A stretch of DNA of 64,000 nucleotides from Oscillospiraceae bacterium. Lineage in GTDB: Bacteria > Bacillota > Clostridia > Oscillospirales > CAG-272. The notes below the pieces were generated by a model. The model was given only the letters and a program-made list of their open reading frames with translations. It ran no database searches and had not been told where the DNA came from. How positions within the stretch are numbered: the first letter of the stretch is position 1; each line of letters begins with the position of its first letter. This document shows positions 30,917-59,486 of the stretch, one piece after another. The stretch is taken from the NCBI GenBank assembly GCA_015065385.1, contig SVQK01000120.1, forward strand, positions 1 through 64,000. Direction: 5' to 3'. Both the position numbers and the translations under genes were made by a program.

Positions 30917-31014
30917 GGTCCGCCTCCTTTCTCTGGTCTCACTCTCCATAACGAACGACACGGCGGAAAAGTTCGCTTTTCAGATCGGTTTTTTCCGATA
31001 TTTACGTTGGCTCG

Positions 31015-33936: not shown

Positions 33937-33948
33937 GGAGGAAACTGC

Positions 33949-36165
33949 ATGGGCTGGTTTGAGAATCAGATCGATCAGAGACGGAAGTCGGACGATCAGC
34001 TCCTCGAGGATTCGTTCGTCAAGGTCGCGGGCGTCGTGCTCGGGCGGCGTACGGCGGAGAAGATCGGAGACGCGCGGATCGTCACGAAAAACGCCATCGA
34101 TGAGATCTTAAAATACTACCATTACAAGTCGGTCGAGCTGCCGGACAGCATCCGCGACACCGAAGCGCAGCTCGACTTCTGCCTCAGACCCCACGGCATG
34201 ATGCACCGCACCGTCGAGCTGACGGAGGGATGGTACAAGGATTCCTTCGGCCCGATCCTCGCGTGCACGAAGGGGGAAAATCAGGCCGTCGCGCTTCTTC
34301 CCGGGACCGTCAGCGGGTATTCCTTCCGGGATCCGGCGACAGGGGAACGCGTAAAGCTGAACGCGAAGACCGCCGCGCTGTTCGAGAGAGAGGCCGTGTG
34401 CTTTTACCGCCCCCTCCCGCAGAAAAAGCTCGGGATCCCGGATCTTCTCTTTTACATGAAGCGCTGCATCTCCAGCGGAGACCTGATCCTTCTGGCAGCG
34501 GCGACGCTTGCGGTGACGACCGTCGGGCTGGTCATGCCGCGGATCACAAAGACCCTGACCGGGCCGATCCTTTCCGCCGGAAAAGCAGATGCCCTCATCG
34601 GGATCGCGGTCGCCATGGTCTGCATCTCGCTCTCCTCCCAGCTGTTCAGCAGCGTGAAGGGGATGCTTCAGGCCCGGATGAACGCCAAAATGAGCCTCGG
34701 CGTTCAGGCGGCCATGATGATGCGGCTTCTGAACCTCCCGGCGAGCTTCTTCCGCAAATACAGTCCGGGAGAGCTGAAAAGCCGCTCCATGTCGGTGAGC
34801 CAGCTCTGTTCTCTCCTTTTGGAAGTCATTCTCGGCGCGGGGCTGACGTCCGTCACGTCCCTTCTGTATGTGGGGCAGATCTTCCGCTTCGCGCCCACGC
34901 TCGTTTTGCCGTCCCTCTGCATCATCCTTGTGACCGTCGGCTTTTCCGCCCTGACCACCTTTGCGCAGATCCGCGTCAACAAGATGCACATGGAGCACAG
35001 CGCGAAGGAATCCGGCATGAGCTACAGCCTCATCACCGGGGTACAGAAGATCAAGCTCGCGGGAGCGGAGAAGCGTGTCTTCGCCAAGTGGCTGGATCTC
35101 TACGCGGAAGGCGCGGAGCTGACCTACAATCCCCCCGCGTTCCTCAAGCTCAATCCCGTCTTCTCCACGGCCATCAGCGCGGCGTCCAATATCGTCATGG
35201 TCCTTTTAGCGGTGAAAAGCGGGATCGGACAGTCGTCCTACTTTGCTTTCACGGCGGCCTACGGGATGCTGATGGGCGCGTTTATGTCCGTTTCGGGCAC
35301 GGCTTTGTCCGCGGCGCAGATCCGGCCCATTCTTGAGATGGCGGAGCCCTTTCTGAAAACCGAACCGGAGACCGCGGAGGACAAGGAGATCGTCACCGGC
35401 TTATCCGGGAGCGTGGAAATCGACCATGTGTCCTTCCGGTATTCCGCGGACGGCCCGTACATTCTGAACGATCTCTCCCTGAAAATCCGATCCGGGGAGT
35501 ACGTCGCCGTCGTCGGAAAGACCGGATGCGGCAAATCCACGCTGGTGCGGCTGCTTCTGGGGTTCGAGAAGCCGGAAACGGGCGCGGTCTTCTACGACGG
35601 AAAGAACATCGAAACGCTCGATCTGCCCTCCCTGCGGAGGAAGATCGGGACGGTCATGCAGGACGCCGGTCTGTTTCAGGGGGATATCTATTCCAACATC
35701 GTCATCACGGCCCCGGAGCTGACCCTCGACGAGGCGTGGGAAGCCGCGGAAAAAGCGGGGATCGCGGACGATATCCGGGCCATGCCGATGGGAATGAGCA
35801 CGTTCGTCTCCGAAGGGCAGGGGGGCATTTCCGGCGGACAGCGGCAGCGGCTCATGATCGCCCGCGCCATCGCTCCGAAGCCGAAATTCCTAATCTTCGA
35901 CGAGGCGACCTCCGCCCTCGACAACCGGACGCAGAAGCAGGTCTCGGAGGCGCTGGACAAAATGGGCTGCACGCGCCTTGTCATCGCGCACAGGCTGTCC
36001 ACCATCCGGCACTGCGACCGCATCCTTGTGCTCGACGGCGGCCGGATCATCGAAGACGGCACCTACGACGAACTGATCGAACAGAACGGATTCTTCGCGG
36101 AACTGGTCGAGCGGCAGAGGCTGAATACGGACGAAGCGAACGCGGCGCGCATTCAGGGACAATAA
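33949..36165 (+). CDS. NHLM-type ABC transporter without peptidase domain
   Basis: 738 aa. The N-terminal ~220 residues (starting MGWFENQIDQRRKSDDQLLE) are not a C39 peptidase and have the layout of the second ABC subunit in NHLM bacteriocin systems. Membrane segments lie at about 180-440. The ATPase has Walker A GKTGCGKS, signature ISGGQRQRL, Walker B FLIFDEATSALD and HRLST switch. It may form a heterodimer with the upstream C39 transporter. A strong terminator follows 25 bp after the stop, ending the operon. Confidence 0.87.
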   Translation: MGWFENQIDQRRKSDDQLLEDSFVKVAGVVLGRRTAEKIGDARIVTKNAIDEILKYYHYKSVELPDSIRDTEAQLDFCLRPHGMMHRTVELTEGWYKDSFGPILACTKGENQAVALLPGTVSGYSFRDPATGERVKLNAKTAALFEREAVCFYRPLPQKKLGIPDLLFYMKRCISSGDLILLAAATLAVTTVGLVMPRITKTLTGPILSAGKADALIGIAVAMVCISLSSQLFSSVKGMLQARMNAKMSLGVQAAMMMRLLNLPASFFRKYSPGELKSRSMSVSQLCSLLLEVILGAGLTSVTSLLYVGQIFRFAPTLVLPSLCIILVTVGFSALTTFAQIRVNKMHMEHSAKESGMSYSLITGVQKIKLAGAEKRVFAKWLDLYAEGAELTYNPPAFLKLNPVFSTAISAASNIVMVLLAVKSGIGQSSYFAFTAAYGMLMGAFMSVSGTALSAAQIRPILEMAEPFLKTEPETAEDKEIVTGLSGSVEIDHVSFRYSADGPYILNDLSLKIRSGEYVAVVGKTGCGKSTLVRLLLGFEKPETGAVFYDGKNIETLDLPSLRRKIGTVMQDAGLFQGDIYSNIVITAPELTLDEAWEAAEKAGIADDIRAMPMGMSTFVSEGQGGISGGQRQRLMIARAIAPKPKFLIFDEATSALDNRTQKQVSEALDKMGCTRLVIAHRLSTIRHCDRILVLDGGRIIEDGTYDELIEQNGFFAELVERQRLNTDEANAARIQGQ

Positions 36166-36738: not shown

Positions 36739-36773
36739 ACAGGTGAAAAAATCAAAGAGGGGAGGTCGTGGCG

Positions 36774-38366
36774 GTGAAGTCGTCCATTGTCAATACACAG
36801 GTCTATCTGACTGTCACGGTCTGTCTTTTCCTCTGCGGCTTCCTTCATGTCGCGCTGTATCGGGTGTGCCTTGCGGACGGTTTTTCCCAGTTCTTCTGCG
36901 GGGTCTGCGTGACGATGTGGATGCTGACGGTCCAGCGCCGGATCACGGATGCCTCGCTCCGCCGCCTGATGTACGCGCTCTCCGCTGCCCTGCTGGTTCT
37001 GTTTCTGCTTCAGCTCTGCCGGTATGATCTGCTTACGGACGCCGAGCCCTACGATCACCTCCTGTGGTATGCCTTCTACGTTCCGAACTGCGCCCTGCCC
37101 GTGATCTGCTGGATGATCGCCCTCCGGATCATGCGCCGGAACGACAGAAAACACACCGTTCTGGTCGCCGCCGTCCTGATCTGCGCCCTGCTCCTCTGCG
37201 CGCTGATCCTGACAAACGATTTCCACCGCCTCGCCTTTCGTTTTCCCGACGACGTTCATACGGATTCACCCCTCATGCGGCGCGGCCCGGTCTACTTTCT
37301 CTTCCTTGCCTTTACCGTCGCCGCGCTCGGCATGTCCTACGGCTTGATCCTGTTCAAGTACTTCCGCCATGTGTCGCGCAGGCTGCATCTCTCCCCCGTG
37401 ATCCCGATCGTTTTGGGGGGAGCCTATCATATCCTGTATTTCTTCCGGCTGGATCCCCGGATCGGAGGGATTCCGCTGTGGAATTACGAAGAGGTGTACG
37501 CGTGGACGCTGATCGCCTGTCTGGAAGCCTGCATCGTGAACGGGATGATTCCGGCCAATACGGGCTATGAAAAGCTGTTTGCCATGACGGAGGTCCCGGC
37601 GGCCATCACGAACGCGGCGGGGAAGCTGGTCTATCAGACGGCGGCGGCGGAGCTGCCCTTCCGTGATACGGACGATCAGCGCATCCGGCGGTATTCCATA
37701 TCCGGCGGGACCATCACATGGGTGGAGGATCTCTCCGAAGTGCGGGATCTGAACCGCCGTCTGGAAGAGGTCAGCGAACAGATGGAGGCCCGGAACTCCG
37801 TCCTCGCCGCCGAGGGGCAGATCCGCAGGGAACGGGCGGAGGTCGAGACGCGGAACCGGCTGTATGACCGGATCAGCGAGGGAGTCAGGGGCCAGCTCGA
37901 AAAAACGGAAGCGCTGTTCGAGGACGGCTCCGACGCGGCTCTTGCGCGGATCGCGGGACTGACGGCCTATGTGAAGCGGAGGAGCAATCTCGAACTGGCG
38001 GTAACGGACGGGACGCTCCGCGCGGAAGATCTGGCCGCCGCCCTCGCGGAATCCCTGGATTATCTGAAGCTGTGCGGCGTCGGGACGAGTCTGGTCTCCT
38101 TCACGGAAGGTCCCTATCCCGCCGGGCAGATCATTTCCCTGTACGAGCAGTTCGAGCTGGTCGCGGAGTCCAACCCGACCGACCTGAACTCCCTGAACGC
38201 GGTCCTGCGGTCGGAAAACGGAAGACTGTCGCTCCGCCTCCGCATCTCCTCGGACGGGTTCACCTTCCACCCGAAGGAGCGGTTCCGTGGCACGGTGTCC
38301 ATGGACCGGGACGGGGAAGACCTGCTTCTGACCATCACCTGCGCGGAAGGAGGGGACGGCGTATGA
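36774..38366 (+). CDS. 7TM membrane sensor, histidine-kinase-like but without clear ATPase domain
   Basis: About 530 aa; GTG 36774 is 8 nt after GGAGGT, better placed than GTG 36768. Seven or so hydrophobic segments lie in residues 1-245, as in the HisKA_7TM N-terminal domain. A PAS-like stretch (EVPAAITNAAGKLVYQ), a coiled coil (about 325-370) and a helical part with ETRNRLYDRISEGVRG follow. I see no phosphoacceptor His in that segment and no N- or G-box, so it is probably a pseudo-kinase or sensor. It is ATGA-coupled to the kinase gene. Confidence 0.78.
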   Translation: MKSSIVNTQVYLTVTVCLFLCGFLHVALYRVCLADGFSQFFCGVCVTMWMLTVQRRITDASLRRLMYALSAALLVLFLLQLCRYDLLTDAEPYDHLLWYAFYVPNCALPVICWMIALRIMRRNDRKHTVLVAAVLICALLLCALILTNDFHRLAFRFPDDVHTDSPLMRRGPVYFLFLAFTVAALGMSYGLILFKYFRHVSRRLHLSPVIPIVLGGAYHILYFFRLDPRIGGIPLWNYEEVYAWTLIACLEACIVNGMIPANTGYEKLFAMTEVPAAITNAAGKLVYQTAAAELPFRDTDDQRIRRYSISGGTITWVEDLSEVRDLNRRLEEVSEQMEARNSVLAAEGQIRRERAEVETRNRLYDRISEGVRGQLEKTEALFEDGSDAALARIAGLTAYVKRRSNLELAVTDGTLRAEDLAAALAESLDYLKLCGVGTSLVSFTEGPYPAGQIISLYEQFELVAESNPTDLNSLNAVLRSENGRLSLRLRISSDGFTFHPKERFRGTVSMDRDGEDLLLTITCAEGGDGV

Positions 38367-39622
38367 CGGAGCTGCTGATCCGCGCCGGAATCGGCGTATG
38401 GGGCGCGTGCCTGTTCGGAGGAGCCTTCGCCCTGACCGGCCTGTACGTCCGCCAGAGGAGGGCGGGAGGACTCTTCCTCTCCCTGCCGATCGCGCTGACG
38501 GCTTTCCTCACGTTTCAGTACGCCTCCGTCATGAACGGCCCGCAGTTCTATCACGAGCCCGTGCTGGATTTCATGCGGAAGGCGGACGGCGTTCCTCTCT
38601 CGGCCAGAATCGCGTTTCTGCTCCTTCTCACGGGAATCGAGATCCTCATGTCGGAGGAGATCCGGGGGTACGGAAAGCGGCGCATCACGCCCACGTCCGT
38701 CAAGGAGGCGATGGACGCGCTCCCGCTCGGACTCTGCTTCTATTCCGACGAGGGGAGAATTTATCTCGGGAACGAGGCCGCGCGCGAGTTCTGCCGGGCC
38801 GTGTCGGGGGAAAATCTTTTGAACGGCAAGGCCTTCGCCGACGTCCTCTTCGCCGGGACGCTGAGCGAGGGCTGGAAACGGAGCGTGATTCGCGGCAGCA
38901 CGATCCTCCTTCTTCCGGGAGGGCTTGCGCTCCAGCCCGAGGTGAAGAAGCTCTCCCCGGGTCTGTGGCTGCTGACCATCGCCGATATCACGCAGCCGTA
39001 CAGCAGGATCGAAGAGCTGAAGCGGTCCACCAGAGAGGTTGCGGCGCTGAACCGGCGTCTGGAGGCCTACAACCGGGAGATCGTCGCGCTGACCGTGGAC
39101 AACGAGATCCTCGCGGCGAAGGTGAAGATCCATGATGAGCTCGGCGCGGATCTCTTGACCATCCGCCGGTACCTCTTGAACGGGGAAGGGGACAGAAGCG
39201 ACATCGCCGAACGCCTCAAGAGGAACATTTCCTTCCTGAAAGCGCCGCCCGAGGACGTGCCGGACGAGTACGGGCGGATCATGAAAACGGCGGAGGACAT
39301 CGGCGTGCGGGTGGAGCTTCACGGCAGCCTGCCCGAAGAGGAACCGAACAAGCATGTTCTCGCCACCGCCATACACGAATGCCTGACCAATACGATCCGT
39401 CACGCGCACGGAGACAGGCTGACCGTGCGGATCGGGGAAGAGGGGGACTTCATTTCGGCCTTCTTCACGAACAACGGCGATCCGCCGAAGGGACCCGTCC
39501 GCGCGTCGGGCGGGCTCGAGTCCCTGAAAACGCTGGCGGAAAAGGCGGGGGGCGGCATGACGATCCGGGTCGTCCCGCGCTTTTCGGTGGAAATCCGGCT
39601 TCCGAAAGGAGGGAGAACATGA
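38363..39622 (+). CDS. Sensor histidine kinase
   Basis: 419 aa; ATG 38363 overlaps the previous stop. Three or so membrane segments lie in residues 1-100. A PAS-like domain starts near VKEAMDALPLGLCFYSDEG, then a coiled coil. The phosphoacceptor region is VKIHDELGADLLTIRRYL (His in the HDxxG context). The N-box is HECLTNTIRHAHGD; the G-box is less clear, with NNGDPPKGPVRASGGLESLK. It should phosphorylate the LuxR-type regulator encoded next, again with a 4 nt overlap. The signal is probably sensed with the 7TM protein. Confidence 0.87.
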   Translation: MTELLIRAGIGVWGACLFGGAFALTGLYVRQRRAGGLFLSLPIALTAFLTFQYASVMNGPQFYHEPVLDFMRKADGVPLSARIAFLLLLTGIEILMSEEIRGYGKRRITPTSVKEAMDALPLGLCFYSDEGRIYLGNEAAREFCRAVSGENLLNGKAFADVLFAGTLSEGWKRSVIRGSTILLLPGGLALQPEVKKLSPGLWLLTIADITQPYSRIEELKRSTREVAALNRRLEAYNREIVALTVDNEILAAKVKIHDELGADLLTIRRYLLNGEGDRSDIAERLKRNISFLKAPPEDVPDEYGRIMKTAEDIGVRVELHGSLPEEEPNKHVLATAIHECLTNTIRHAHGDRLTVRIGEEGDFISAFFTNNGDPPKGPVRASGGLESLKTLAEKAGGGMTIRVVPRFSVEIRLPKGGRT

Positions 39623-40257
39623 GGTACAGAGTTCTGATCGTGGACGATCAGACCGTGTCGAGACAGCTTTTCGAACGGATCATCCGCGATTCCGACCGGT
39701 ACGAGACGGCGGCGTCCATCGACAGCGCGGGCATGGCGGACGCCTACTGCGCAAGGGAGAAGATCGATCTTGTCCTGATGGACATCGTGATGAAGGACGG
39801 CTCGGACGGGCTGGAAGCGGCGGCGCATATCCGCAAATCGTACCCGAACATCCGGATTTTGATGGTCACCTCCATGTTTGACGCGGCCCTTCTGAAAACG
39901 GCGCGCGAGGCGGGGGCGGATTCCTTCTGGTACAAGGAGGTTCAGGACAGGCCCATGCTCGAGGTGATGGACCGCACGATGGCGGGGGAGCGGGTCTGGC
40001 CGGACGAGGCCCCGGTGACGCCCATCGGGAACGCCGCGAGTTCGGAGCTCACGGAAAGAGAGATCGACGTTCTGCGCTGTCTGGCGGAGGGCCTGTCCGA
40101 CAGGGAGTGCGCGGAAAAGCTCGTCGTCAGCGTCGCCGCGGTCCGGTATCACATCGGGAACCTCTTCGAAAAGACCGGCTTCTCCTCCCGGACGGAGCTG
40201 GTCGTGGCGGCAGTCCGCAGCGGCCTGATCATTCCCGGCGGTAAACGGTGGAATTAG
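39619..40257 (+). CDS. Response regulator, NarL/LuxR family
   Basis: 212 aa; ATG 39619 follows AAAGGAGGG. The receiver has the acidic pair D9-D10 in LIVDDQ, the phosphoacceptor Asp 55 in LVLMDIVMKDG, a conserved Ser/Thr in MVTSMF and Lys in FWYKE. The C-terminal LuxR helix-turn-helix is LTEREIDVLRCLAEGLSDRE followed by VSVAAVRYHIGNLFEKTG. It most likely binds the palindrome found upstream of its own operon and of the SLH gene at 40397; that is inferred. Confidence 0.92.
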   Translation: MRYRVLIVDDQTVSRQLFERIIRDSDRYETAASIDSAGMADAYCAREKIDLVLMDIVMKDGSDGLEAAAHIRKSYPNIRILMVTSMFDAALLKTAREAGADSFWYKEVQDRPMLEVMDRTMAGERVWPDEAPVTPIGNAASSELTEREIDVLRCLAEGLSDRECAEKLVVSVAAVRYHIGNLFEKTGFSSRTELVVAAVRSGLIIPGGKRWN

Positions 40258-46228: not shown

Positions 46229-47842
46229 TCAGCCCTCGCTCTCCCCCGTCTCTCCCGTAAAGTGCATGCCCAGCATGGTGATGTCGTCGAACTGCGGCGC
46301 GCTGCCCACAAAGGCGTCGAGATCCTGCCGTACGTTGCGCAGAAGCGTATTCACGTCTGCGTCCGGATCGCGGTTCAGGGCGTTGAGCATCCGGTCGGTT
46401 CCGAACAGCTCGTTCTCGGCGTTGGTGGCTTCCGGTACGCCGTCGGTATAGACGAACAGGCTGTCTCCGGGATACAGCTCGAATTCGTGCTCCCGGAACC
46501 GCATTCCCTCCATGGCGGCCACGGCGGGAGAATGGCGGTACACCACCAGCTCGTACTGTCCGCCCGCGCGCCGGATGGCAGGATGCTCGTGCCCGGCGTT
46601 GGCGGCCAGTCCGCGGCCCGTCTTGACGTTCAGAATGGCAAGCCAGACCGTGACGAACAGTTCCGCTTCGTTGCCCTCGCAGAGCTGGTCGTTCACGAAC
46701 CGAAGGATCTCGGCAGGCCCTCCGCCCATCTGCGCGCGGTTCTTGATCAGGGTCTTTGCGATCACCATGAACAGCGCGGCGGGTACGCCCTTGCCGGATA
46801 CGTCCGCCATAACGAGGCCGAGATGGTCGTGGTCGATCAGGAAAAAGTCGTAGAAGTCGCCGCCCACTTCCTTTGCGGGGGTCATGGTGGCGTAGATGTC
46901 GAATTCTTTCCGGTCGGGAAACGCCGGGAAGATCCGCGGCAGCATATCCGCCTGAATCTGCGTGGCCACGTTCAGCTCCGCGCCGATCCGCTCCTTCTCC
47001 GCCGTGATGGTCCGGATGTTGTCGATGTACTTGACGATATCGTTTTCCATCAGGCGGATGGAAACCGCGAGATCCTCGATCTCATCCTTTGTCCGGATAT
47101 CCTCGAGCCGCGTGGACGTCACCGTGTCGTTCCGCGCGAATTCCGAGACGTTCTTCCGGATCCGCATCAGAGGTCCGATGAAATACCGGCGCATGAAGAA
47201 CCAGTAGATGACGCTGAACACCGCGAGGATCCCGAGGGAGAAGAGGATCATTTTCAGGATATAGCCCCGCAGCGTGGACAGGATCACCTTCATCCACACG
47301 TCAACGAACAGAAGCGCGACGATATTTCCCTCGCTGTCGATCACGGGCAGCATGCTCGAGGTCAGATAGCCGTATCGCGGCGAGTGTCGAACCATGTAGT
47401 TGTCGGGCTTCGTCCCCTTCGTGTAGCACTCCCACACCTCGTCGAAATAGGACGAGACCGGGTCGGTATCCCCGAGGGGAACGCCGGAGGAGTCGAAGAC
47501 GTACCGCACGGTCTGATCCTCATAGACGGTCACGATGTAGATATACGCGGCTTCGGAGGCCACCTCCACGTTCTTGATGTACTCCGCCGTCTCAGCGTAC
47601 TCCTCGTCCTCGGTCCACGTCGAGGCGTACTGTCCGACCTTGTCGTGGTCGATGTGGTCAAGAATGATGTTTGCGATCACATAGCCGTTGTCGTTGTACA
47701 GCTTCCGGATCGTGTTGCTGTACTGGAAATAGCCGCTGAGGGTGGAGACCGCGCAGATCAGGACGGTCATCAGAACAATGCTCAGAAGGATCTTTTTGCC
47801 GACGCCGAAGCGGATCTCTTCCGACTTTTCCTCGTTATTCAC
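46229..47842 (-). CDS. Membrane SpoIIE-family PP2C phosphatase
   Basis: About 537 aa. GTG 47842 is preferred because AAAAGGAGG lies 9 nt before it, and it overlaps the GNAT stop; ATG 47863 is upstream. There is a membrane segment at about 20-40, an extracytoplasmic sensor region (about 45-185) and a second membrane segment (195-220), then a HAMP-like stretch. The PP2C domain has GGDFYDF, VMADVSGKGVPAALFM, NAGHEHP, YTDGVPEA and DDITML, so all metal-binding aspartates are present. It would dephosphorylate a STAS-type antagonist, by family. It ends the MATE-RsbW/GNAT/SpoIIE operon. Confidence 0.9.
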   Translation of the reverse strand: MNNEEKSEEIRFGVGKKILLSIVLMTVLICAVSTLSGYFQYSNTIRKLYNDNGYVIANIILDHIDHDKVGQYASTWTEDEEYAETAEYIKNVEVASEAAYIYIVTVYEDQTVRYVFDSSGVPLGDTDPVSSYFDEVWECYTKGTKPDNYMVRHSPRYGYLTSSMLPVIDSEGNIVALLFVDVWMKVILSTLRGYILKMILFSLGILAVFSVIYWFFMRRYFIGPLMRIRKNVSEFARNDTVTSTRLEDIRTKDEIEDLAVSIRLMENDIVKYIDNIRTITAEKERIGAELNVATQIQADMLPRIFPAFPDRKEFDIYATMTPAKEVGGDFYDFFLIDHDHLGLVMADVSGKGVPAALFMVIAKTLIKNRAQMGGGPAEILRFVNDQLCEGNEAELFVTVWLAILNVKTGRGLAANAGHEHPAIRRAGGQYELVVYRHSPAVAAMEGMRFREHEFELYPGDSLFVYTDGVPEATNAENELFGTDRMLNALNRDPDADVNTLLRNVRQDLDAFVGSAPQFDDITMLGMHFTGETGESEG

Positions 47843-48431
47843 CGCGCTTGTCCTCCTTTTCATCCAGTTTTTTCATGTAGAACACCGCGTCGCAGATGCA
47901 GTGGTTCTTTTGGCAGTAGGGGCAGTAAAGAAGCATGTCCACCCACGGGCGGCTGATTTCCGCGACCGCCTCGAAGCCATTGTCCCGGAAGATATGCCTC
48001 ATCGGGACCTCGCGTCCCAGCGGGCGGAGCGCCGTCGCCAGAATCAGCTTGGCCCCGCGTTCCCTGAGCACCGGCTCCAGATCCCGGATGAACGACGAGC
48101 AGATCCCGAGCTTCTGATAGTCCTTCTCCGTGCTGGCCGTCTTGTAGACTCCGACAGGCGTGTCCGGTGGGTATTCCGCCAGAGCGTCCGGCTTTTCCGT
48201 CACATGCAGGAGCGGGAGCGCCTCTTCCAGCGCGGAGATGAACCCGTAAAAGAACGAGACGACGGCGCCGTCCCTGTCCGCGTCGGTCACAACGTAGAAC
48301 AGATGCCGGTCCCCGTGCAGCAGCGCCTCCAGCTCGTCCAGGGAGTAGTAGTCCGCCGCGATGTATTCGTCGATCAGACGCTTGACCGCGGTCAGATCCC
48401 GGGCCTCGGCGTTCCTGACTTCAAGCTTCAT
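47835..48431 (-). CDS. GNAT-fold acetyltransferase-like protein with Cys-rich tail
   Basis: 198 aa, ATG 48431 with GGAGG before it; it overlaps the MATE gene by 11 nt. Residues about 1-60 and 85-150 fit the GNAT fold, with a motif A of the QxxGxx kind (DYQKLGICSSFI). The C-terminus has CPYCQKNHCICDA, four Cys and a His in a possible metal site not expected in GNATs. Substrate unknown. Being between two partner-switching-type genes suggests it modifies or senses something in that pathway. Confidence 0.75.
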   Translation of the reverse strand: MKLEVRNAEARDLTAVKRLIDEYIAADYYSLDELEALLHGDRHLFYVVTDADRDGAVVSFFYGFISALEEALPLLHVTEKPDALAEYPPDTPVGVYKTASTEKDYQKLGICSSFIRDLEPVLRERGAKLILATALRPLGREVPMRHIFRDNGFEAVAEISRPWVDMLLYCPYCQKNHCICDAVFYMKKLDEKEDKRGE

Positions 48432-50238
48432 TCTTATGATCCTCCTTCAGGATGATTTGCAGCGTGTTGACGCCGAACGCGCTCTGGTAATTGACCATTT
48501 CCACCATCTTTTTGATCATCCGGACGCCCATGTACATATCGTCCGAATCGCCTCCCACACCCGGCGAAAAGCAGAACGGGTTGAACGGGATCCCGCTGTA
48601 GCGGATGCGGATTCCCCGCACGCCGTTGACGGAATACGCTCTCAGGTCGAACCGGAGATTCTGCCCGCCCTGCGACGCGTTGACCTCGCGGATCAGCGTC
48701 ATCACTTCCTCCATGCTCATTTCGAGCCGCATCGTCTCTTTGCGATCCATGCCGTTTGCGGAACAGAAGCCGCTGATGCGTTCGCTCGCGCTGACGATTT
48801 CATCGACGTTCGCGTCCACGGAGAAATTCAGCACCTTGCCGCTCTTTTCGTTGGCGAGATCGGTCATCAGATAGCGGGAATCCTGAGCGTGCCGCCGGTG
48901 GCGCAGAACCGCCGCGCCCCACCACACAAGGACGGTTCCCAGCTCCGAGAAGAGCAGGAACGAGAAGGTCGAGAACTTCGCGGCGATGGCCAGCCAGAGG
49001 GTGACGCAGGTCATGACGATCACGCGGAAGAAGATCAGCGCGTTCGCCCATCCGTTCCGTCCGGACATGTTGTAAAAAGTGGTCAGGATCTGTAAAAACA
49101 GCGCCGGGAAAACGGAGAGCGCCATCCACATCAGCGGGACGAAGATCGATCCGGAGAGGCCGTACATCCGGGGGATCAGAGGTGACAGCGCGGCGCACAG
49201 CCCGAGAAAGACACACCCGGAAACGCAGCCGATCTTCCATTCCTCGCGGAGCAGCAGACGGCAGCTTCCGTTGTCGCGCTCCCCGCTGAACACGCCCAGC
49301 ATCGCGCCTCCCGCGACCGGTACGCCCAGCGTGACGCACTCTCCGAAGCCCCAGATCCCGTTGACCGCGGTAAAGACCGCCACCAGTCCCGCGCCGCCGC
49401 TCGCCAGCAGCATGGAGTTGACGATCAGCAGCCGCACGGTCGAGCAGAGGTTGCTGAACGCGGACGGAAAGCCCGCCGCCGCGATAGCCAGCCACTTGTC
49501 CCGGGTGCGGACCGTCTCCGCCCGCCAGCTGTACGGGCTGTCCTTCGAAAAGAGGCGGATCATCCCGTAGAGGCAGGCCAGCGCCGTTGCGATCACGCTC
49601 GCCAGTCCCGCCCCGAAGACGCTCATATCCAGCTCGTACACGAACAGAATATCCAGCACGATGTTGGTCACGGTCATGCCGCCCATCATGACGGTCACGT
49701 CCGTGTTTTTCCCGTCCAGACGCAGATACCAGAACGGGATGTAGATGAGGATCTTGGGCAGCGCGCCGATCACCGTGATCACCACATACTGCATCACATA
49801 GCCCCGGGCAGCTTCGTCGGCGCAGAGGAACGAGACCAGCGGCTGCCGGAAGAGCAGGGCCAGCGCGGTGACGAACGCCGAAGCCAGCACCGAGACGTTC
49901 AGCCCGGTCCGGAAAAAGGAGTCCCTCGTCTCCGCGTCTCCGATGCCGATTGCCCGGGCGGCGGGGATCTCGGTACCGGCGGCAAGGAACGACCCTATGA
50001 CGCACAGAGCCAGATACACCGGCAGGCTCAGATTGATCGCCGCAAGCGCTTCGGGGCCGATCCGCCTGCCCACGAGGATGCCGTCCACAAACACGTTGAT
50101 GTTGACGCTCAGAATCGAGAGCATCCCTGTGATGACGGCTTTGCGGTAGGTATCCCGTATAAACGCGGCGTTCTGCGTCAAACCGCCGTCCGTTTGATTT
50201 TCCTGATTGACTTTATTCGCCATACAGCTTCTTTCCAT
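48421..50238 (-). CDS. MATE family transporter fused to a C-terminal RsbW-like ATPase domain
   Basis: 605 aa. Residues about 25-450 are a MATE exporter with twelve hydrophobic segments (VDGILVGRRIGPEALAAINL is the typical first-lobe motif). The remaining ~145 residues form an HATPase_c_2/RsbW-like domain beginning near KVLNFSVDANVDEIVSASE. In it the N-box position reads MEEVMTLIREV, with Thr where Asn is expected, and the G1 box reads YSGIPFNPF without the Asp; the end is MGVRMIKKMVEM. Start may be ATG 50238 or 50223. Promoter 50340-50368. Substrate of the MATE part is unknown. Confidence 0.85.
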   Translation of the reverse strand: MERSCMANKVNQENQTDGGLTQNAAFIRDTYRKAVITGMLSILSVNINVFVDGILVGRRIGPEALAAINLSLPVYLALCVIGSFLAAGTEIPAARAIGIGDAETRDSFFRTGLNVSVLASAFVTALALLFRQPLVSFLCADEAARGYVMQYVVITVIGALPKILIYIPFWYLRLDGKNTDVTVMMGGMTVTNIVLDILFVYELDMSVFGAGLASVIATALACLYGMIRLFSKDSPYSWRAETVRTRDKWLAIAAAGFPSAFSNLCSTVRLLIVNSMLLASGGAGLVAVFTAVNGIWGFGECVTLGVPVAGGAMLGVFSGERDNGSCRLLLREEWKIGCVSGCVFLGLCAALSPLIPRMYGLSGSIFVPLMWMALSVFPALFLQILTTFYNMSGRNGWANALIFFRVIVMTCVTLWLAIAAKFSTFSFLLFSELGTVLVWWGAAVLRHRRHAQDSRYLMTDLANEKSGKVLNFSVDANVDEIVSASERISGFCSANGMDRKETMRLEMSMEEVMTLIREVNASQGGQNLRFDLRAYSVNGVRGIRIRYSGIPFNPFCFSPGVGGDSDDMYMGVRMIKKMVEMVNYQSAFGVNTLQIILKEDHKNEA

Positions 50239-50339: not shown

Positions 50340-50368
50340 ATTATACCATGTTTTCGCGTCGGATTCAA
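50340..50368 (-). promoter_or_regulatory. Promoter of the MATE-RsbW operon
   Basis: On the minus strand TTGAAT (50368-50363), 17 bp and perfect TATAAT (50345-50340), about 100 bp before the start codon. Confidence 0.8.
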
Positions 50369-50420: not shown

Positions 50421-52790
50421 TTACTGCTCGAATATGGCTGTTTTATACTCCTTCCACAGTGAGCCGGGCTCGGGCCACCTTGCTTTGTCCGCAAGCCGGT
50501 ACACCATGAAGTCTTCCCCGCGGGAGCCGAAGACCGTGTCCCCCGCCGTCGTCGGAGCGTCGCCGAGGAACTTCGCGGAGGTGATGCCGTCCGTCCCCTC
50601 AAAGGCGTTCGAGCGGATCGTCGTGACGGACGCCGGGACCGTCAGCTCGCCCGTGAAGCCCGAACAGCCGGAGAAGGCGCGGACGCCGAGGGTGGTGACG
50701 GTATCGGGGAGCGTCAGAGGACCGGTGAGACCGGAGCAATTGTAGAAGGTGTAGCCCTCGATCGCGGACAAATTATCAGGGAGCGTCAGCGTCCCCGTAA
50801 AGCCCGTGCAGTTCTCAAAGGCGCGGGTGCCGATGGAGGTCACGTTCTTGCCGATGGTCAGGTCCCCGGTAAAGCCCGTGCAGCCGGAGAAGGCGTATTC
50901 GCCGATGGAGGTCACACCGTCGCCAAGGATGAGGTTGCCGGTGAAGCCGGTGCAGTCTTTGAAGGCGTTCTTGCCAATTAAGGCATTACATATTTCTAAA
51001 TCTCCTGAAAAACTACTGCACCCGGAAAAAGTGCTTGTACCGATGTTATATACACCGTCACCGATGATAAGGTTGCCAGAGAATCCTGTACAGTTGGTGA
51101 AAGCATAATCGTTAATATTCGTTCTGGCATCGTCCCAATGTGATTTGTTGCCGGGTATCGTCAAATCTCCAGTGAAGCCTGTGCAACCGTAAAATGCATA
51201 AATATCAATACAAGTTACAGTATCTGGAATCGACAGACTGCCAGTGAATCCGGTGCAACCATAAAATGAGTATCCGTCTATGTGCGTCATGCTGTCCGGA
51301 ATCAACAGATTACCAGTGAATCCGGTGCAACCGTAAAATGCAAATTGTGAAATCGAGGTCACACTATCAGGAATCTTCAAATTGCCAGTGAAACCACTGC
51401 AATCGTAAAATGCATACTGTCTGATCGAAGTTATACTGTCCGGAATAGTAAGATATCCTGTAAAACCACTGCATCCATAAAATACGGATGCCTCGATCGA
51501 AGTCATACTGTCAGGTATTGTCAGGCTCCCTGAGAATCCACTGCAACTGGAAAACACCCCTTCTTCGATTGTTGTTACACAGTCCGGAATTATTAGTTCT
51601 CCTGTGAAACCACTACAACCGGCAAAAGACTCATGCTTGATTGTAGTTACTGTGTTCGGAATAGTCAAGTTTCCTGTAAATTCAAAGCAACCGTAAAAAG
51701 CATATGCACCGATCGAATTGACACCCTCTTGAAGTCTTAGTGAACTCAATGAATGCTTTGCCCATGGAGCAGTGCTTCTGTCTCTATAAGAATGATTGCC
51801 TATAGCAGCGTATTCATGACTATAATCCCACATCTCCCCCGTCCCGCTGATCTCCAGCAGTCCGCTCTCATACACCGTCCACGTCAGATCATCCCCGCAC
51901 TTTCCCGACGCGACAGCTTTCCCTTCGCTCCCGGGAGTGTCGGAAAGCACGGCTAGCCGGTACTCGTGCCATGTGCCGCTGTACGCGCTGTAGGACGGAT
52001 CCGCGGTGAAGCTCTCGGCGAATTCTTCTCTGCACTGCACGGTGAAGCCCGTCCCCAGCTCGCCGAAGACTGACGCGCCGGCCGCGGGAGCCTTTCCTTC
52101 AAACGCCGCGCCCGTGATCCCGCAGCCGGAAAACGCCCGCTTGCCGATCTGTCCGACGCCCGCCGGGATCATCAGGGGGCCGCTCAGATTCGGGCAGTCC
52201 GCGAAGGCGTAGGCCCCGACGGTCGTGAGGCTCGCGGGCAGGGTCAGCTCTCCCCGCAGTCCGGCGCACCCGTCGAACGCGCTGTCACCGACGGTCAGAA
52301 GAGACGACGGCAGAGTCAGCTGACCGGACAGGGAAGAACACCCCGCAAAGGCGAAATTGCCGATCGAGGACACTCCTTCGCCGATGGAGAGCGCGGTGAA
52401 GTCCGATTCGGCCCAAGGCGCGGAGGAGGCTGTCGAGAAGTCCCACATCGGGCCGGTCCCTTCGATCACCAGCGTCCCGCCGTCCAGCCGCCACGTCAGC
52501 GCGTCCCCGCATTTTGCGGATCCCGGGGTCTCGTCCGCGGCGAACCACTTCCGGCAGTCCTCCCACCCCGCGAGGAAGCGGGAGAGGATCAGCCGGTCTT
52601 TTCCCGAGACGGAGCCGTCTCCGTCGATATCGCCGATCAGCCTGCCGTCCGCGTCCCGTTTCGTCGGGAGGAAAGACGCTTCGTCCGCCGCCGCGACGCG
52701 GTAGGACAGCGCCGGGACCGCCACGAGCAGGGCGGCAAGGCTGAAGAGGATGAGGCGGATTTTTCTCATGAAATTCTGATCTTTTGCCAT
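50421..52790 (-). CDS. BspA-type leucine-rich-repeat surface protein with N-terminal half dockerin
   Basis: 789 aa with a signal peptide ending near SYRVAAA (about residue 33). Residues about 50-75 read GDIDGDGSVSGKDRLILSRF, one calcium-binding half of a type I dockerin. A GDALTWRLDGGTLVIEGTG-type domain occurs twice, then about 20 LRR_5 repeats (core GCSGFTGNLTIPDSVT-like). BspA-like proteins bind host or matrix surfaces. The central part (about 50990-51840) is markedly more AT-rich than the flanks. Its own promoter is at 52826-52854. Confidence 0.86.
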   Translation of the reverse strand: MAKDQNFMRKIRLILFSLAALLVAVPALSYRVAAADEASFLPTKRDADGRLIGDIDGDGSVSGKDRLILSRFLAGWEDCRKWFAADETPGSAKCGDALTWRLDGGTLVIEGTGPMWDFSTASSAPWAESDFTALSIGEGVSSIGNFAFAGCSSLSGQLTLPSSLLTVGDSAFDGCAGLRGELTLPASLTTVGAYAFADCPNLSGPLMIPAGVGQIGKRAFSGCGITGAAFEGKAPAAGASVFGELGTGFTVQCREEFAESFTADPSYSAYSGTWHEYRLAVLSDTPGSEGKAVASGKCGDDLTWTVYESGLLEISGTGEMWDYSHEYAAIGNHSYRDRSTAPWAKHSLSSLRLQEGVNSIGAYAFYGCFEFTGNLTIPNTVTTIKHESFAGCSGFTGELIIPDCVTTIEEGVFSSCSGFSGSLTIPDSMTSIEASVFYGCSGFTGYLTIPDSITSIRQYAFYDCSGFTGNLKIPDSVTSISQFAFYGCTGFTGNLLIPDSMTHIDGYSFYGCTGFTGSLSIPDTVTCIDIYAFYGCTGFTGDLTIPGNKSHWDDARTNINDYAFTNCTGFSGNLIIGDGVYNIGTSTFSGCSSFSGDLEICNALIGKNAFKDCTGFTGNLILGDGVTSIGEYAFSGCTGFTGDLTIGKNVTSIGTRAFENCTGFTGTLTLPDNLSAIEGYTFYNCSGLTGPLTLPDTVTTLGVRAFSGCSGFTGELTVPASVTTIRSNAFEGTDGITSAKFLGDAPTTAGDTVFGSRGEDFMVYRLADKARWPEPGSLWKEYKTAIFEQ

Positions 52791-52985: not shown

Positions 52986-55460
52986 ATGGATAAACTGATT
53001 TCCGCAAACAAACTCAGAAAAACCTTCGTTTCGCTCTGTTCGCTTCTTCTTGCCGCCTGCATTCTGCTTGGAACCGGCTGCGAGGGCAGGACGACCGGAG
53101 CACCTCTTCCGGAGGACACCGGCTCAAAGCCCCCCGCGGACGCCTCGCCCGATCCGGAACCGGAAGCCCTGACTGTGCCCGACGCGGATCCGGAGGAATA
53201 CGGGGATCTGGTTATCTCGAAGGTCTACGGAACCGGCGGCCCTTCCTCCCCGTGCGGACATGCCTTTGTCGAGCTGACGAATACGGGATCCGCCCCCCTT
53301 CCTCTCGGCCCCCTCGCGCTCTACTGCGCGGTCGGAAAAGCGTCCGGCTATGCGTCCTATCCCCTCCCGGACATCACGCTCGAGGGCGGGGAATCCTGCC
53401 TGATCCGGGGCGCGGCCTCGCCGGAATATGACGCGTCCAACGAAGTCCTCCGCATAGAATCCTGTGACGCGGAGTGCGCGCTCGCCCTGAACAGCAGGGA
53501 AATCCGGCTCGTCCTTGCCGTGAGAGGACAGACGTTCGAGAGCGAGGCGGGACCGGAAGAACTCCCCGGCGTGATTTCCTATTTCGGAGCGACGGAGGCG
53601 TATTTCTTCGACACGGGGTTTGTCTCCGGCTTCACCGACCGGACGATGGCTGTGCGCACTGCCATGAAACAGGACAGCGGCTACTTTTTGCAGGATCTGA
53701 CCGACTCCACGACGGAAAAGCTGAATCAGATCGCCCCTGTCTCGAAGGACGGGACGCGCGCCGCAGTCGTCCGCTCGATGCTCGACGAGGTGAAGTTTTC
53801 GCACCCCGCCGGGTTTTACGACGCCCCGATCGAACTTGCGCTGACCGCCCCCGCCGGATACGATGCCGTGTATTATACGACGGACGGCTCGGATCCCGCC
53901 TCCTCCGTCACAAGGAAGAAATACGAAAAGCCCATCCCGCTGTCCGATACGACTGAGACCGCCTTCGGGCGCACCTACGCGTCCGGGCTGAATTTTGTCG
54001 GACAGATCGCCTCGAATGCCAAAAAAATGATCGGCGCGCATGTGATCAAGGCCTGCGCGGCAAAGGGGAAAAGTACCTCCGGCGTCTATACGAACACCTA
54101 CTTTATCAGCGCGAAGATGCGGGAATACGGCGTTTCCGTCCTGTCCGCGTCCATGCCGATCAGGCAGATGTTCGGCACGCCCGGCTTCTATCACAACTTC
54201 AACCCGTCCTCGAACGATCCCAACACGCGCGGCAAGGCGTTTTTGGAGGTGTTCGACAAAGACGGAGTCCGCCGCGGGTATTCCAACGTCGAGCTTGCGG
54301 CGAGCGGCCACGGTTCGTCCGGCACAGGCATGCGCTCCATGAAGGTGTTCTGCAAAGCCTCGGACAACACGGCGGACGGAACGGATCCCGCGCTCCACTT
54401 CGACCTGTTCGGCGGGTACGCGAAGAACGCCAAGGGGCAGAGCATCACCTCGTTCTCCCGTCTGGTTCTGCGCAATTCCGGCAACGACTGCGGCTCCTCC
54501 TACATCCGCGACGCGTACATGCAGCGGCTCAGCGAAGGCATGGCGGCCGATACCATGGCATACGCGCCCGTCCTTGTGTTCGTCAACGGCGATTTCTGGG
54601 GGATCTACAACGCCCGCGAACGGTACAGCGGCGAGTATGTCGAATCCCATTACGGAATCGACAAGGACAACGTCGCGCTGATCGAAAGCGATTATTCGAA
54701 GGTGCACACCGACCAGAACGCGAAGTTCATCGTCAGCTCCGGCAGCCCCGACGACGCGGACGAGTTCAACGATCTGGTGAAATTCATCCGGAAAAACAAG
54801 CTGGACAAGAAAGAAAACTTCGCCTATGTGGAGAGCAGGCTGGATCTCGACTCCCTGATCGATCTGTTTGTCTCCCGGCTCTATTTCAGCGCGATCGATT
54901 TCCCCGGGAACAACATCAAGCTGTGGAGAAACCGCGCGCCGAACGATTTGCCCGGAGCGGACCCGTCGGGCGCGGACAACCGCTGGCATTTCGTCCTTTT
55001 GGATATGGACATGGGCCTTTCGTTCTATAAAGACGCGAACAGCACGACGGAAACGTCCAACTATTTCAGCTGGCTCCGCTCCGACGGCACGGTTGCGAGC
55101 ACCATCATCCACAAGCTGCTGGCGAACGAGGGCTTCAAGAACCGGTTTCTGGCGCGCTTCTATCAGGTTCTGAACGAGATCTACGTCCCCGACCGGATGG
55201 AAGAGGTCCTTGACGGGATCACGGCGGAACGGGCTCCCATCGAAAAACTGCAGTCGATGCGATGGGGCGCGGATCTGAACAAGTACAACAAAGCGATTTC
55301 CGATATCCGTCAGTTCGTCCAGCGACGGAACAAGTACGCCCTGCGCTTCCTCTGCTCCTTCTTCGACGTGACGGAGGACGAGATCGCACAGATTTGTGCC
55401 AGAGTGAAGGCGGAGGAGAAACGGCGCGGAATGCCGGTCGTTCCCGCCGATCCCCGTTGA
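52986..55460 (+). CDS. CotH-kinase-family lipoprotein with lamin-tail and chitobiase-like domains
   Basis: 824 aa. The signal ends at lipobox GTGC near residue 35. A lamin-tail-type domain (about 75-190; HAFVELTNTGSAPLPLG) and a chitobiase-C/CHB_HEX-type segment (about 270-320; YDAVYYTTDGSDP) come first. The CotH domain (about 380-760) has GDFWGIYNARERYSGEYVES and WHFVLLDMDMGLSF, the kinase-like motifs. CotH proteins are phosphotransferases acting on secreted proteins. Located between two dockerin-LRR genes, it may modify surface proteins; the link is inferred from position. Confidence 0.88.
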   Translation: MDKLISANKLRKTFVSLCSLLLAACILLGTGCEGRTTGAPLPEDTGSKPPADASPDPEPEALTVPDADPEEYGDLVISKVYGTGGPSSPCGHAFVELTNTGSAPLPLGPLALYCAVGKASGYASYPLPDITLEGGESCLIRGAASPEYDASNEVLRIESCDAECALALNSREIRLVLAVRGQTFESEAGPEELPGVISYFGATEAYFFDTGFVSGFTDRTMAVRTAMKQDSGYFLQDLTDSTTEKLNQIAPVSKDGTRAAVVRSMLDEVKFSHPAGFYDAPIELALTAPAGYDAVYYTTDGSDPASSVTRKKYEKPIPLSDTTETAFGRTYASGLNFVGQIASNAKKMIGAHVIKACAAKGKSTSGVYTNTYFISAKMREYGVSVLSASMPIRQMFGTPGFYHNFNPSSNDPNTRGKAFLEVFDKDGVRRGYSNVELAASGHGSSGTGMRSMKVFCKASDNTADGTDPALHFDLFGGYAKNAKGQSITSFSRLVLRNSGNDCGSSYIRDAYMQRLSEGMAADTMAYAPVLVFVNGDFWGIYNARERYSGEYVESHYGIDKDNVALIESDYSKVHTDQNAKFIVSSGSPDDADEFNDLVKFIRKNKLDKKENFAYVESRLDLDSLIDLFVSRLYFSAIDFPGNNIKLWRNRAPNDLPGADPSGADNRWHFVLLDMDMGLSFYKDANSTTETSNYFSWLRSDGTVASTIIHKLLANEGFKNRFLARFYQVLNEIYVPDRMEEVLDGITAERAPIEKLQSMRWGADLNKYNKAISDIRQFVQRRNKYALRFLCSFFDVTEDEIAQICARVKAEEKRRGMPVVPADPR

Positions 55461-56957: not shown

Positions 56958-59486
56958 GTGAAAAAAGGTGTTTTTTTGGTGGTTCTGCTGCTGGCATTTG
57001 CCATGGTGATTCTTCCTGCCATGGCGACTGAGGATCACGGGGGAGTTCTGGGTTCCGGAACGTGCGGGGAAGCACTCACATGGGTGCTTTATGAGGACGG
57101 GCATCTTGTGGTCGAAGGATCTGGGGAGATGCGGGGCTCTGCATGGTATTCTCTGCGGGAGTCCATTCGTTCCGTCAGTCTGCCGGAGGGGCTTACAAGT
57201 ATCGGTGATTATGCGTTTTATGAATGCAAAAACATGGTTTCAGATCTTGAAATCCCGGACAGCGTCACGACGATCGGATACGGAGCGTTCTATAAGTGCG
57301 GCTGTTCCGGTATTCTGACGCTTCCCAAAAAACTGACGACGATCGGTGATTTTGCGTTTTCTGAAGTCCGGTTTGACGGAAACCTGACGATTCCGGATGG
57401 TGTCGTATCGATTGGCAAATCAGCTTTCAGTAAGACCGGATTTACAGGAACTCTTGAACTCCCGGACAGCGTCACGACAATTGGCGATTATGCTTTTTTT
57501 GGAGTTCCGTTTACAGGAAGTCTGACGATTCCGCACTATGTTACCGAAATCGGTAGTTCAGCTTTTTGTCAGACTGGATTTACAGGAACACTAACGATTC
57601 CGGACAGCGTCACGACAATTGGTAATCATGCGTTTTATCTGTGCGGTTTTACTGGGAGCCTCACGATCCCGGGCAGCGTTGAATCGATCGGGGAAGAGGC
57701 GTTCGCAGCATGTGTGCATATGTCGGGGCTTCTCACTGTAGAAGCCGGTGTCGGGCAGATCGGCAGTTTTGCGTTCGACAGTACCGAGTTTGAGTCCGTC
57801 CTGTTTGTCGGAGATGCTCCGGAGACTGGTGACCACATTTTGGGATATCGTGGGGAACAGTTTCGTGTGTTCTATTATGGATACTGCGAGGGATGGACCT
57901 CTGAGACATGGAATGGTTACGCTTCGAAAGATATTTCCCCGGAGATTATTGATTCAGGCAACTGCGGGGAACACCTTTCATGGGTTCTGAATAATCGCGG
58001 TGAGTTGGTGATCACGGGAAGCGGCGCGATGGAAGACTACGAATTATTGTTCGGTATCGGGTACGGGTATGAAGTCAACCGTATTACGGAGATCCACGCT
58101 CAATCCACGTCGCCGTGGCAATGCTACAGAACGTTGATCCGTTCCATCGTTCTGCCTGACGGGCTGACCGGAATCGGGAACGCCGCGTTTGTGAATTGCA
58201 GATATACGGAAGGGGAGCTGGTTCTTCCGGAAGGATTGGTAACGATCGGGGAATGTGCGTTCCTCGGGTGTTCGGGTTTTACGGGAACGCTCAGGTTTCC
58301 GAATACTGTTGAATGGATCGGTGGACGAGCCTTTTTCGGATGTACCGGTTTTGGCGGGACGCTGATCCTGCCGGATTTCAGTGGGACGCAGGTAGAATAC
58401 CATTCTGTGGGAGATAATGCATTTGCGTTTACACGTTTTGAAGGTACGGTTCGGATTCCGAAGGAACTGATCAATATCTTTCCCTCCGTGTTTACACACT
58501 GTGAAAGGCTCACCGCTTTTGAAGCGGAGGAAGGGTACGGATGGAGCTTTACCGTCGGAGGCATCCTTTATCATTATATCATTTCGTGGGATTTTAGTAT
58601 AAGACTGACAATCAACCAGATTCCCGCAGGCTGGAGCGGCACTGTCCGATTTCCGGAAAGACTATGGAGAATCGATTCGTATGCTGCTGCCGGCTGCACG
58701 CAACTCACGGGTACGCTAAAGCTTCCGGACTCCGTCGAGGAGATCATGGATGGCGCGTTCAGCGACTGCGGGCTCAGTCATATCATTATCCCCGCATCAG
58801 TGCGTTCCATATCTGACGGTGTTTTTTCGAAATCCTATCTGCTTCGTTCTGTTGTATTTGAGGGAGATGTTCCCGACATGGGTCCTAATCGGGCATACTA
58901 TACTTTTCAGGATACCGGACGAGATGTCGGCGGCGTGAAGATCATCTGTTATGCCTCTCACGCAAAGAGCTTTACGGAGAGCGATCTGTATGACGCAGGA
59001 GAGGGAACTTGGTGCGGCTGTCCGCTTATCGTCCTTGACGACGCGGACAGGATCGTTTTATCCACGGATTCCGACTGCTTCTTTGCGGTAAACGGTACCG
59101 TTCTGACGGGAATTCCCGGATCGACGAGCTATGAAGCGTTCATGTCCAATTTTGAGAACAAATCGCTTTGCGTGTGCGATCGGAGCGGACGGGTGCTGGA
59201 TGAGGAGTATTCCGGAACGATCGGAACAGGATTCAAAGTAGTTGCCCTTGATGAAACTGGAAACGTGACGGATGAGGCAACAGTTGTGGTTGCCGGAGAT
59301 CTAAACGGTGACGGAAAGGTCAGCGCCGTTGACAGGCTCCTTCTCGCGCGGGTCCTGGCAAAATGGGATGGCTATCTGGATCCGGAGGCGGATATGCGCG
59401 CTGCCGATCTTGACAGAGACGGAAATGTCACCGCAGCCGACCGAATGATTTTGACAAAGATGATCAACGGAAAAAAAGGGATGTAG
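56958..59486 (+). CDS. BspA-type leucine-rich-repeat protein with C-terminal dockerin
   Basis: 842 aa, GTG start at 56958. The signal peptide ends near LPAMA (about residue 22). A CGEALTWVLYEDGHLVVEGSG domain is followed by LRR_5 repeats, then a second such domain (CGEHLSWVLNNRGELVITG) and more LRRs. The C-terminus is a full type I dockerin with two calcium loops: GDLNGDGKVSAVDRLLLAR and DLDRDGNVTAADRMILTK. Dockerins bind cohesins on scaffoldins; none is seen in this window. Base composition is lower in GC than most neighbours. Confidence 0.88.
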   Translation: MKKGVFLVVLLLAFAMVILPAMATEDHGGVLGSGTCGEALTWVLYEDGHLVVEGSGEMRGSAWYSLRESIRSVSLPEGLTSIGDYAFYECKNMVSDLEIPDSVTTIGYGAFYKCGCSGILTLPKKLTTIGDFAFSEVRFDGNLTIPDGVVSIGKSAFSKTGFTGTLELPDSVTTIGDYAFFGVPFTGSLTIPHYVTEIGSSAFCQTGFTGTLTIPDSVTTIGNHAFYLCGFTGSLTIPGSVESIGEEAFAACVHMSGLLTVEAGVGQIGSFAFDSTEFESVLFVGDAPETGDHILGYRGEQFRVFYYGYCEGWTSETWNGYASKDISPEIIDSGNCGEHLSWVLNNRGELVITGSGAMEDYELLFGIGYGYEVNRITEIHAQSTSPWQCYRTLIRSIVLPDGLTGIGNAAFVNCRYTEGELVLPEGLVTIGECAFLGCSGFTGTLRFPNTVEWIGGRAFFGCTGFGGTLILPDFSGTQVEYHSVGDNAFAFTRFEGTVRIPKELINIFPSVFTHCERLTAFEAEEGYGWSFTVGGILYHYIISWDFSIRLTINQIPAGWSGTVRFPERLWRIDSYAAAGCTQLTGTLKLPDSVEEIMDGAFSDCGLSHIIIPASVRSISDGVFSKSYLLRSVVFEGDVPDMGPNRAYYTFQDTGRDVGGVKIICYASHAKSFTESDLYDAGEGTWCGCPLIVLDDADRIVLSTDSDCFFAVNGTVLTGIPGSTSYEAFMSNFENKSLCVCDRSGRVLDEEYSGTIGTGFKVVALDETGNVTDEATVVVAGDLNGDGKVSAVDRLLLARVLAKWDGYLDPEADMRAADLDRDGNVTAADRMILTKMINGKKGM

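Follow-up and report, generated by a model that had tools for sequence, protein, structure and literature searches.

We describe an operon in which a MATE transporter is fused to a domain that resembles the kinases of partner-switching systems. The operon is located in a 64,000-nucleotide stretch of DNA from an Oscillospiraceae bacterium (contig SVQK01000120.1, positions 1 to 64,000; the window). Its first gene encodes a MATE-type protein with a C-terminal tail that has the predicted fold of RsbW and SpoIIAB and has lost residues of the ATP site; the following genes encode a GNAT-like protein and a SpoIIE phosphatase. Judged from its sequence, the tail is a pseudo-ATPase under purifying selection rather than a decaying remnant. 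Genes for related fusion proteins commonly occur near genes for STAS or SpoIIE proteins; together with the operons of close relatives, this suggests that the window operon belongs, in reduced form, to a family of partner-switching modules. Its features, all on the minus strand, are the following.

48421..50238, minus: MATE protein with C-terminal RsbW-like domain, 605 residues (open reading frame (ORF), Pfam, AlphaFold, Foldseek)
47835..48431, minus: GNAT-like protein, 198 residues (weak Pfam match)
46229..47863, minus: SpoIIE phosphatase, 544 residues (Pfam; alternative start GTG 47842)
50340..50368, minus: promoter-like site TTGAAT-17-TATAAT, 5′ of the operon (consensus match only)
48892..50181, minus: MATE part, approximately residues 20–449
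50083–50085, minus: Asp52, aligned with Asp41 of PfMATE chains
49651–49653, minus: Asp196, aligned with Asp184 of PfMATE chains
48439..48843, minus: RsbW/SpoIIAB-type pseudo-HATPase tail, approximately residues 466–600 (sub-cut-off HATPase_c_2, profile, fold match)
48682..48711, minus: degenerate N-box EEVMTLIREV, residues 510–519 (Leu515 at Asn, Val519 at His)
48598..48600, minus: degenerate G1 position, Tyr547 at Asp (RYSG; RDN/RDD in most members)
46259..46831, minus: SpoIIE/PP2C catalytic domain (E-value 9.8e-44, over cut-off)

As an earlier, sequence-only reading of this DNA had described, the three genes overlap their neighbors on the minus strand, and the transporter is about 150 residues longer than usual. 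The promoter that it placed upstream is a promoter-like site at 50368–50340 with 10 of 12 consensus matches; this evidence is modest because three such sites occur within 5 kb vs 0.9 expected from shuffles. By eye, the GTG at 47842, which follows AAGGAGG, may be the true SpoIIE start. We ruled out a chance fusion or frameshift as the origin of the 605-residue protein: it is a single open frame, with 75–80% identity in three other genomes. The source assembly consists of 128 contigs and is 94% complete; misassembly of the operon is argued against because close relatives share it.

The 605-residue protein is of the MATE type, as assigned by its MatE domains (Pfam E-value 5e-18, over cut-off) and modeled fold. 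The AlphaFold model of the whole protein, for which an alignment of 80 family members was supplied, has a pLDDT of 92.2 and a pTM of 0.91, and its top Foldseek match is PfMATE (3wbn; TMt 0.86). The residues that align with Asp41 and Asp184 of PfMATE (numbers counted off the printed alignment), which have functional roles in that protein, are aspartate in 76 (position 52) and 64 (position 196) of the 80 members. The protein is a putative transporter.

As regards its fold, the C-terminus has the RsbW-like character that was proposed for it. With the tail alone, the Pfam HATPase_c_2 match (E-value 0.0011, 19.4 bits) is below the cut-off of 27.4 bits; an intact fusion (L056) reaches 47.6 bits. The tail-only AlphaFold model (pLDDT 90.5) has 17 fold matches in the PDB with E-values ≤0.001, all of them from RsbV/RsbW, UsfX-RsfB, SpoIIAB, and a sigF/anti-sigma entry, the best being an RsbV/RsbW complex; the absence of a HATPase fold, which would have spoken against the proposal, is thus not what the model predicts. 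A sequence search of the PDB with the window tail alone gave no useful match; the family profile identifies RsbW (6m36, E-value 5.2e-6) and SpoIIAB (approximately 6e-4).

The tail had also been called degenerate, and it is: Leu515, Val519, and Tyr547 occupy the positions of the N-box Asn, the His, and the G1 Asp, and Glu510 and Glu511 are retained. Because Leu515 and Tyr547 replace Asn and Asp, we do not class the window tail as a kinase. The same Leu and Tyr are found in all four members of the window clade (the window and genomes G002, G016, and G145). In a midpoint-rooted FastTree tree of the 80 members, this clade sits in an eight-member group (support 0.99) in which every tail is degenerate; the other four members (L276 in G348, L279 in G722, L280 in G558, and L282 in G580) are from genomes of other families. 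Further groups without Asn or Asp have 9, 3, and 1 members, so that one or the other residue is lost in 21 of the 80 (L284, counted here, has a gap rather than a substituted residue in the Asn column). Of the 109 fusion ORFs scored, which include nearly identical copies and loci chosen for their SpoIIE match, 93 retain the N-box Asn and 104 the G1 Asp.

Selection on the tail was assessed by the pairwise (NG86) ratio of nonsynonymous to synonymous substitution rates (dN/dS) among the four window-clade genomes: the values for the tail (residues 470–600) are 0.135–0.225 and those for the MATE part 0.137–0.209, all approximate because dS is 0.60–1.05 in both regions. These values rule out simple decay of the tail; yet the GNAT pair of G016 and G145 reaches 0.535.

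The fusions form a sizable family, with 121 MATE-HATPase ORFs among the loci examined. A scan of genome contigs with four intact members identified 178 relatives in 218 candidate stretches, from which 80 were kept; the records of all 80 are titled Clostridia, groups within Clostridia, or Bacillota, and many refer to rumen or gut samples in their titles. One relative, in Ruminococcus sp. FC2018 (L182), has no metagenome-derived label. In a sample of the phylum, a match running through the tail was found in at least 10 of 397 other genomes (12 loci), a lower bound with mostly three candidates scored per genome; an ORF for SpoIIE is present in all 12 loci and within 5 kb in 11.

The genome neighborhoods tie the family to partner switching. 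We counted distinct loci that have at least 5 kb of flanking sequence on both sides and that were not picked through SpoIIE (loci L225–L244, fetched for their SpoIIE match, were excluded). A STAS or SpoIIE ORF is located within 5 kb in 44 of 61 such fusion loci vs 0 of 18 ordinary MATE loci (Fisher p 1.6e-8, only a guide because the fusion loci are related and not independent). The proportion is 7/10 in the first set of relatives, 29/43 in the genome-contig scan, and 8/8 in the phylum sample. The control set comprised 20 regions, 19 with a detected non-fused MATE (L304 was misplaced) and 18 with full flanks. Outside these sets, the available sequence of short-flank loci contains STAS or SpoIIE for 17 of 43 fusions (none picked through SpoIIE) and for 0 of 6 further non-fused MATE ORFs.

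The order of the genes is also conserved. In G016 it is STAS, MATE-HATPase, GNAT, SpoIIE, and HATPase; in G145, STAS, MATE-HATPase, GNAT, and a single ORF for SpoIIE and HATPase; and in G002, MATE-HATPase, GNAT, SpoIIE, and HATPase, with no STAS found alongside. A fourth genome, G1010, has MATE-HATPase with a tail that keeps Asn and Asp, a methyltransferase-like ORF (assigned by eye), GNAT, and SpoIIE fused to HATPase. Thus, the order recurs in three genomes and, with one inserted gene, in a fourth; the earlier reading, which an absence of this order from all related genomes would have refuted, stands on this point. The RsbW-like kinases beside or fused to SpoIIE in G002, G016, and G145 have a canonical N-box and GGLG motif, unlike the transporter tails of the same operons, which lack Asn and Asp. 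The operon STAS proteins retain the conserved serine in their motifs (YISSAGLRVL in G016 and YVSSAGLRVL in G145).

The window genome has candidate partners elsewhere. Five STAS matches were found in this genome (PF01740, E-value ≤0.01), none on this contig, in agreement with the earlier statement that the window has no STAS gene; two of the proteins share 62% identity with the operon STAS of G016. Three kinases (on C125, C30, and C29) share 51–63% identity with the operon kinases. A second MATE-HATPase, with an intact tail, is encoded on the same contig as the operon (C117:86517-88268). A protein of about 200 residues encoded before STAS genes of the window genome (C29, C41; L098 6208-6822, L097 293-859) looked by eye like a degenerate HATPase; it has no Pfam HATPase match and was not used.

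The other two proteins of the operon were assigned with different confidence. The SpoIIE phosphatase of the sequence-only reading is firmly identified by its catalytic domain and has the GGDFYD, DG, and DD motifs, which we take to have their usual roles in this family. It is probably membrane-bound, to judge from hydrophobic stretches seen by eye and a HAMP match of 15.2 bits (below the cut-off of 25). The acetyltransferase of that reading is a weaker case: the 198-residue protein matches Acetyltransf_1 with an E-value of 0.059 and 14.1 bits, short of the cut-off of 20.7. Its C-terminus has a CPYC..CIC motif that is kept in the four close relatives, and within the order the family is found in 2 of 394 genomes at E-value ≤1e-15 (the window genome and G1010). 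For the window pairs, dN/dS of GNAT and SpoIIE is 0.109–0.378. In a second clade, also with degenerate tails (L053, L226–L232), another GNAT-type protein follows MATE-HATPase in 8/8 loci, and a homolog of LPG_synthase_C precedes it in 7/8 (e.g., L228 6420-7310); in L228, the only locus of this clade in which Pfam domains were named, the protein in the GNAT position passes two acetyltransferase models.

Elsewhere, a STAS domain joined to an APH-like phosphotransferase domain is encoded in partner-switching clusters at L052 7816-9405, L057 1814-2989, and L110 4747-5919; the L052 protein also carries an intact HATPase_c_2 domain.

Our preferred interpretation, held with a little less than even confidence, is partner switching with the transporter as its output. 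A STAS protein, encoded in the operon in relatives and supplied in trans in the window genome, would be phosphorylated by the intact RsbW-like kinase; in response to a signal, the SpoIIE phosphatase would remove the phosphate; and unphosphorylated STAS would dock on the dead kinase tail and set the activity of the transporter. The output of the switch would be transport, with no sigma factor involved, and the GNAT-like protein would perhaps acetylate the cargo or a partner. We favor this reading because an intact kinase and a dead tail are split within one operon and because STAS-type switches with targets other than sigma factors have been published (PMC8457831). The sequence-only reading coupled the transporter to a phosphorylation switch: the tie to partner switching is supported, and phosphorylation by the tail itself is not, the ATP-site residues being lost in the window clade.

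Several observations weigh against this interpretation. The window operon itself has neither a STAS gene nor an intact kinase gene, and in 17 of the 61 fusion loci both STAS and SpoIIE are absent within 5 kb. Dead tails are not the rule in the family, since 59 of the 80 aligned members keep both ATP-site residues. STAS is not associated with tail degeneracy (6/11 degenerate vs 16/30 intact). Another HATPase is located within 5 kb of the same share of degenerate (6/11) and intact (16/30) fusions, whereas a fusion with a dead tail would be expected to depend on a kinase encoded separately. SpoIIE is the gene that accompanies degenerate tails (10/11 vs 9/30 for intact tails, p 9e-4).

This last association fits as well or better a different reading, the main rival, which we consider rather unlikely: the pump is a sensor of substrate or flux, its tail activates or restrains SpoIIE in the manner of RsbT, and the signal exits via STAS to a target elsewhere. 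RsbT is a homolog of RsbW-like kinases. It activates RsbU by binding the N-terminal domain and linker (PMC12143880), and transporter-sensor fusions are known (e.g., CbrA, which joins an SSS transporter to a histidine kinase; PMC7918813). However, SpoIIE itself seems to include a membrane and sensor part, and the lost catalytic residues rule out signaling through phosphorylation by the window tail.

Intact MATE-HATPase proteins could instead be membrane-bound STAS kinases gated by transport, the window clade being derived and its tail kept for assembly or localization only. The retention of Asn and Asp by most fusion ORFs agrees with this proposal, as does the location of STAS directly adjacent to the intact fusion in several loci (e.g., L149 and L155); the tail of the window clade is, however, about as constrained as the transporter part, and more than half of the intact fusions with full flanks have another HATPase nearby. 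We regard this proposal as improbable. That the window copy is a remnant whose STAS and kinase are lost, whose signaling is gone, and whose MATE is now an ordinary efflux pump is very improbable: no kinase accompanies SpoIIE in the window copy, alone among the four close relatives, and both this copy and that of G002 have no neighboring STAS, but all three ORFs are open, dN/dS for the window pairs is 0.135–0.173 in the tail and similarly below one in GNAT and SpoIIE, and STAS and kinase homologs are encoded elsewhere in the genome.

The preferred reading, partner switching with transport as output, can be compared with known systems. The clusters of relatives join a SpoIIE-type phosphatase, STAS, and an RsbW-type kinase, as do RsbU/RsbV/RsbW and SpoIIE/SpoIIAA/SpoIIAB, and the tail model matches RsbW and SpoIIAB entries; in contrast to those systems, no sigma factor is recognized in the operon, and one RsbW-like domain forms part of a transporter protein and, in the clade, has lost ATP-site residues. 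In SiaABCD of Pseudomonas aeruginosa, the target under the control of a switch protein is likewise not a sigma factor (PMC7647112, PMC8457831); the window phosphatase matches the SiaA model with 56.6 bits, far short of its cut-off of 700, and the weaker fold matches of the tail include SiaB-SiaC (E-value approximately 0.01). The SiaABCD target is a diguanylate cyclase, whereas that of the window operon would be a transporter joined to a kinase-like domain. SLC26/SulP proteins with a C-terminal STAS domain also join a transporter to one half of a STAS/kinase pair (PMC8256260); here, a MATE carries the RsbW-like half instead. In SSS-transporter sensor kinases such as CbrA, a transporter is likewise fused to a histidine-kinase-like ATPase domain, and proteins that combine SSS, HATPase_c, and PP2C_SIG domains have been reported from Actinobacteria (both PMC7918813); the window protein differs in its transporter family, the lack of HisKA, the degenerate ATP site of its clade, and a separate STAS. 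PfMATE and DinF-BH share the fold and the two aligned aspartates and lack the cytoplasmic tail of about 150 residues.

The cargo may be suggested by a gene pair for NHLP-type peptide export of the ATP-binding cassette (ABC) class that is located about 10 kb from the operon on the opposite strand (31747–36165, plus; NCBIfam TIGR03796, 917.7 bits with a cut-off of 853.3, and TIGR03797, 721.8 with a cut-off of 709.4). No precursor peptide was recognized by eye among the small ORFs on either side of the pair. In G016, in G145, and in G579, which belongs to another family, STAS and MATE-HATPase are preceded on the same strand by homologous ABC genes; one such gene is upstream of STAS in G168 (L230) and G278 (L232), with a fragment at the contig end of L191. 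Between the ABC genes and STAS/MATE-HATPase, G145 encodes a radical S-adenosylmethionine (SAM)/SPASM protein, and both G016 and G145 have a small ORF that by eye is leader-like; that of G016 had no Pfam or NCBIfam match within the thresholds applied. Two results count against a special link: the remaining fusion loci have no ABC match with ≥45% identity, and an ordinary MATE locus of G002 (L305) also has such an ABC gene. The evidence is suggestive of a link to NHLP-type export that is limited to some lineages.

Other genes of the window include one that the sequence-only reading missed when it stated that no sigma gene is present: an extracytoplasmic function (ECF) sigma factor (30353–30961), about 15 kb from the operon, adjoins a protein of 572 residues that has a weak anti-sigma match (28638–30961 for the two, minus). 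No sigma factor was recognized inside the operon. A HisKA_7TM protein with no kinase/ATPase domain match is followed by a LuxR-type response regulator (36768–40257, plus). BspA-type LRR_5 repeat proteins are encoded at 50421–52790 and at 56958–59486, the second of which also has a dockerin domain; a CotH kinase protein is encoded at 52986–55460.

Among the titles listed in our literature searches, none concerned a MATE-HATPase fusion, which is weak evidence of absence since most subscription journals were outside the searches; in PMC2887384, none of the terms SpoIIE, anti-sigma, MATE, efflux, NHLM, and histidine kinase was found. Sigma factors and diguanylate cyclases are among the published outputs of partner switching by STAS proteins (PMC8457831, PMC8256260). 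The parts of the operon are known; the way in which they are combined, together with the pseudo-kinase tail, appears to be a new form of partner switching. More broadly, and as a possibility that we consider less likely than not, the family may consist of signal-gated exporters, that is, MATE pumps placed under STAS partner switching by a fused RsbW domain that has become a pseudo-kinase receptor in at least two lineages, and that in some genomes control export tied to NHLP-type peptide clusters (ribosomally synthesized and post-translationally modified peptides, RiPPs). If so, membrane export would be a direct output (or input) of a STAS switch, and the window clade would provide a natural case of an RsbW domain that became a receptor by losing its ATP site. 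Many Clostridia records contain relatives of the fusion, and the operons of these relatives offer ready sets of partners for study.

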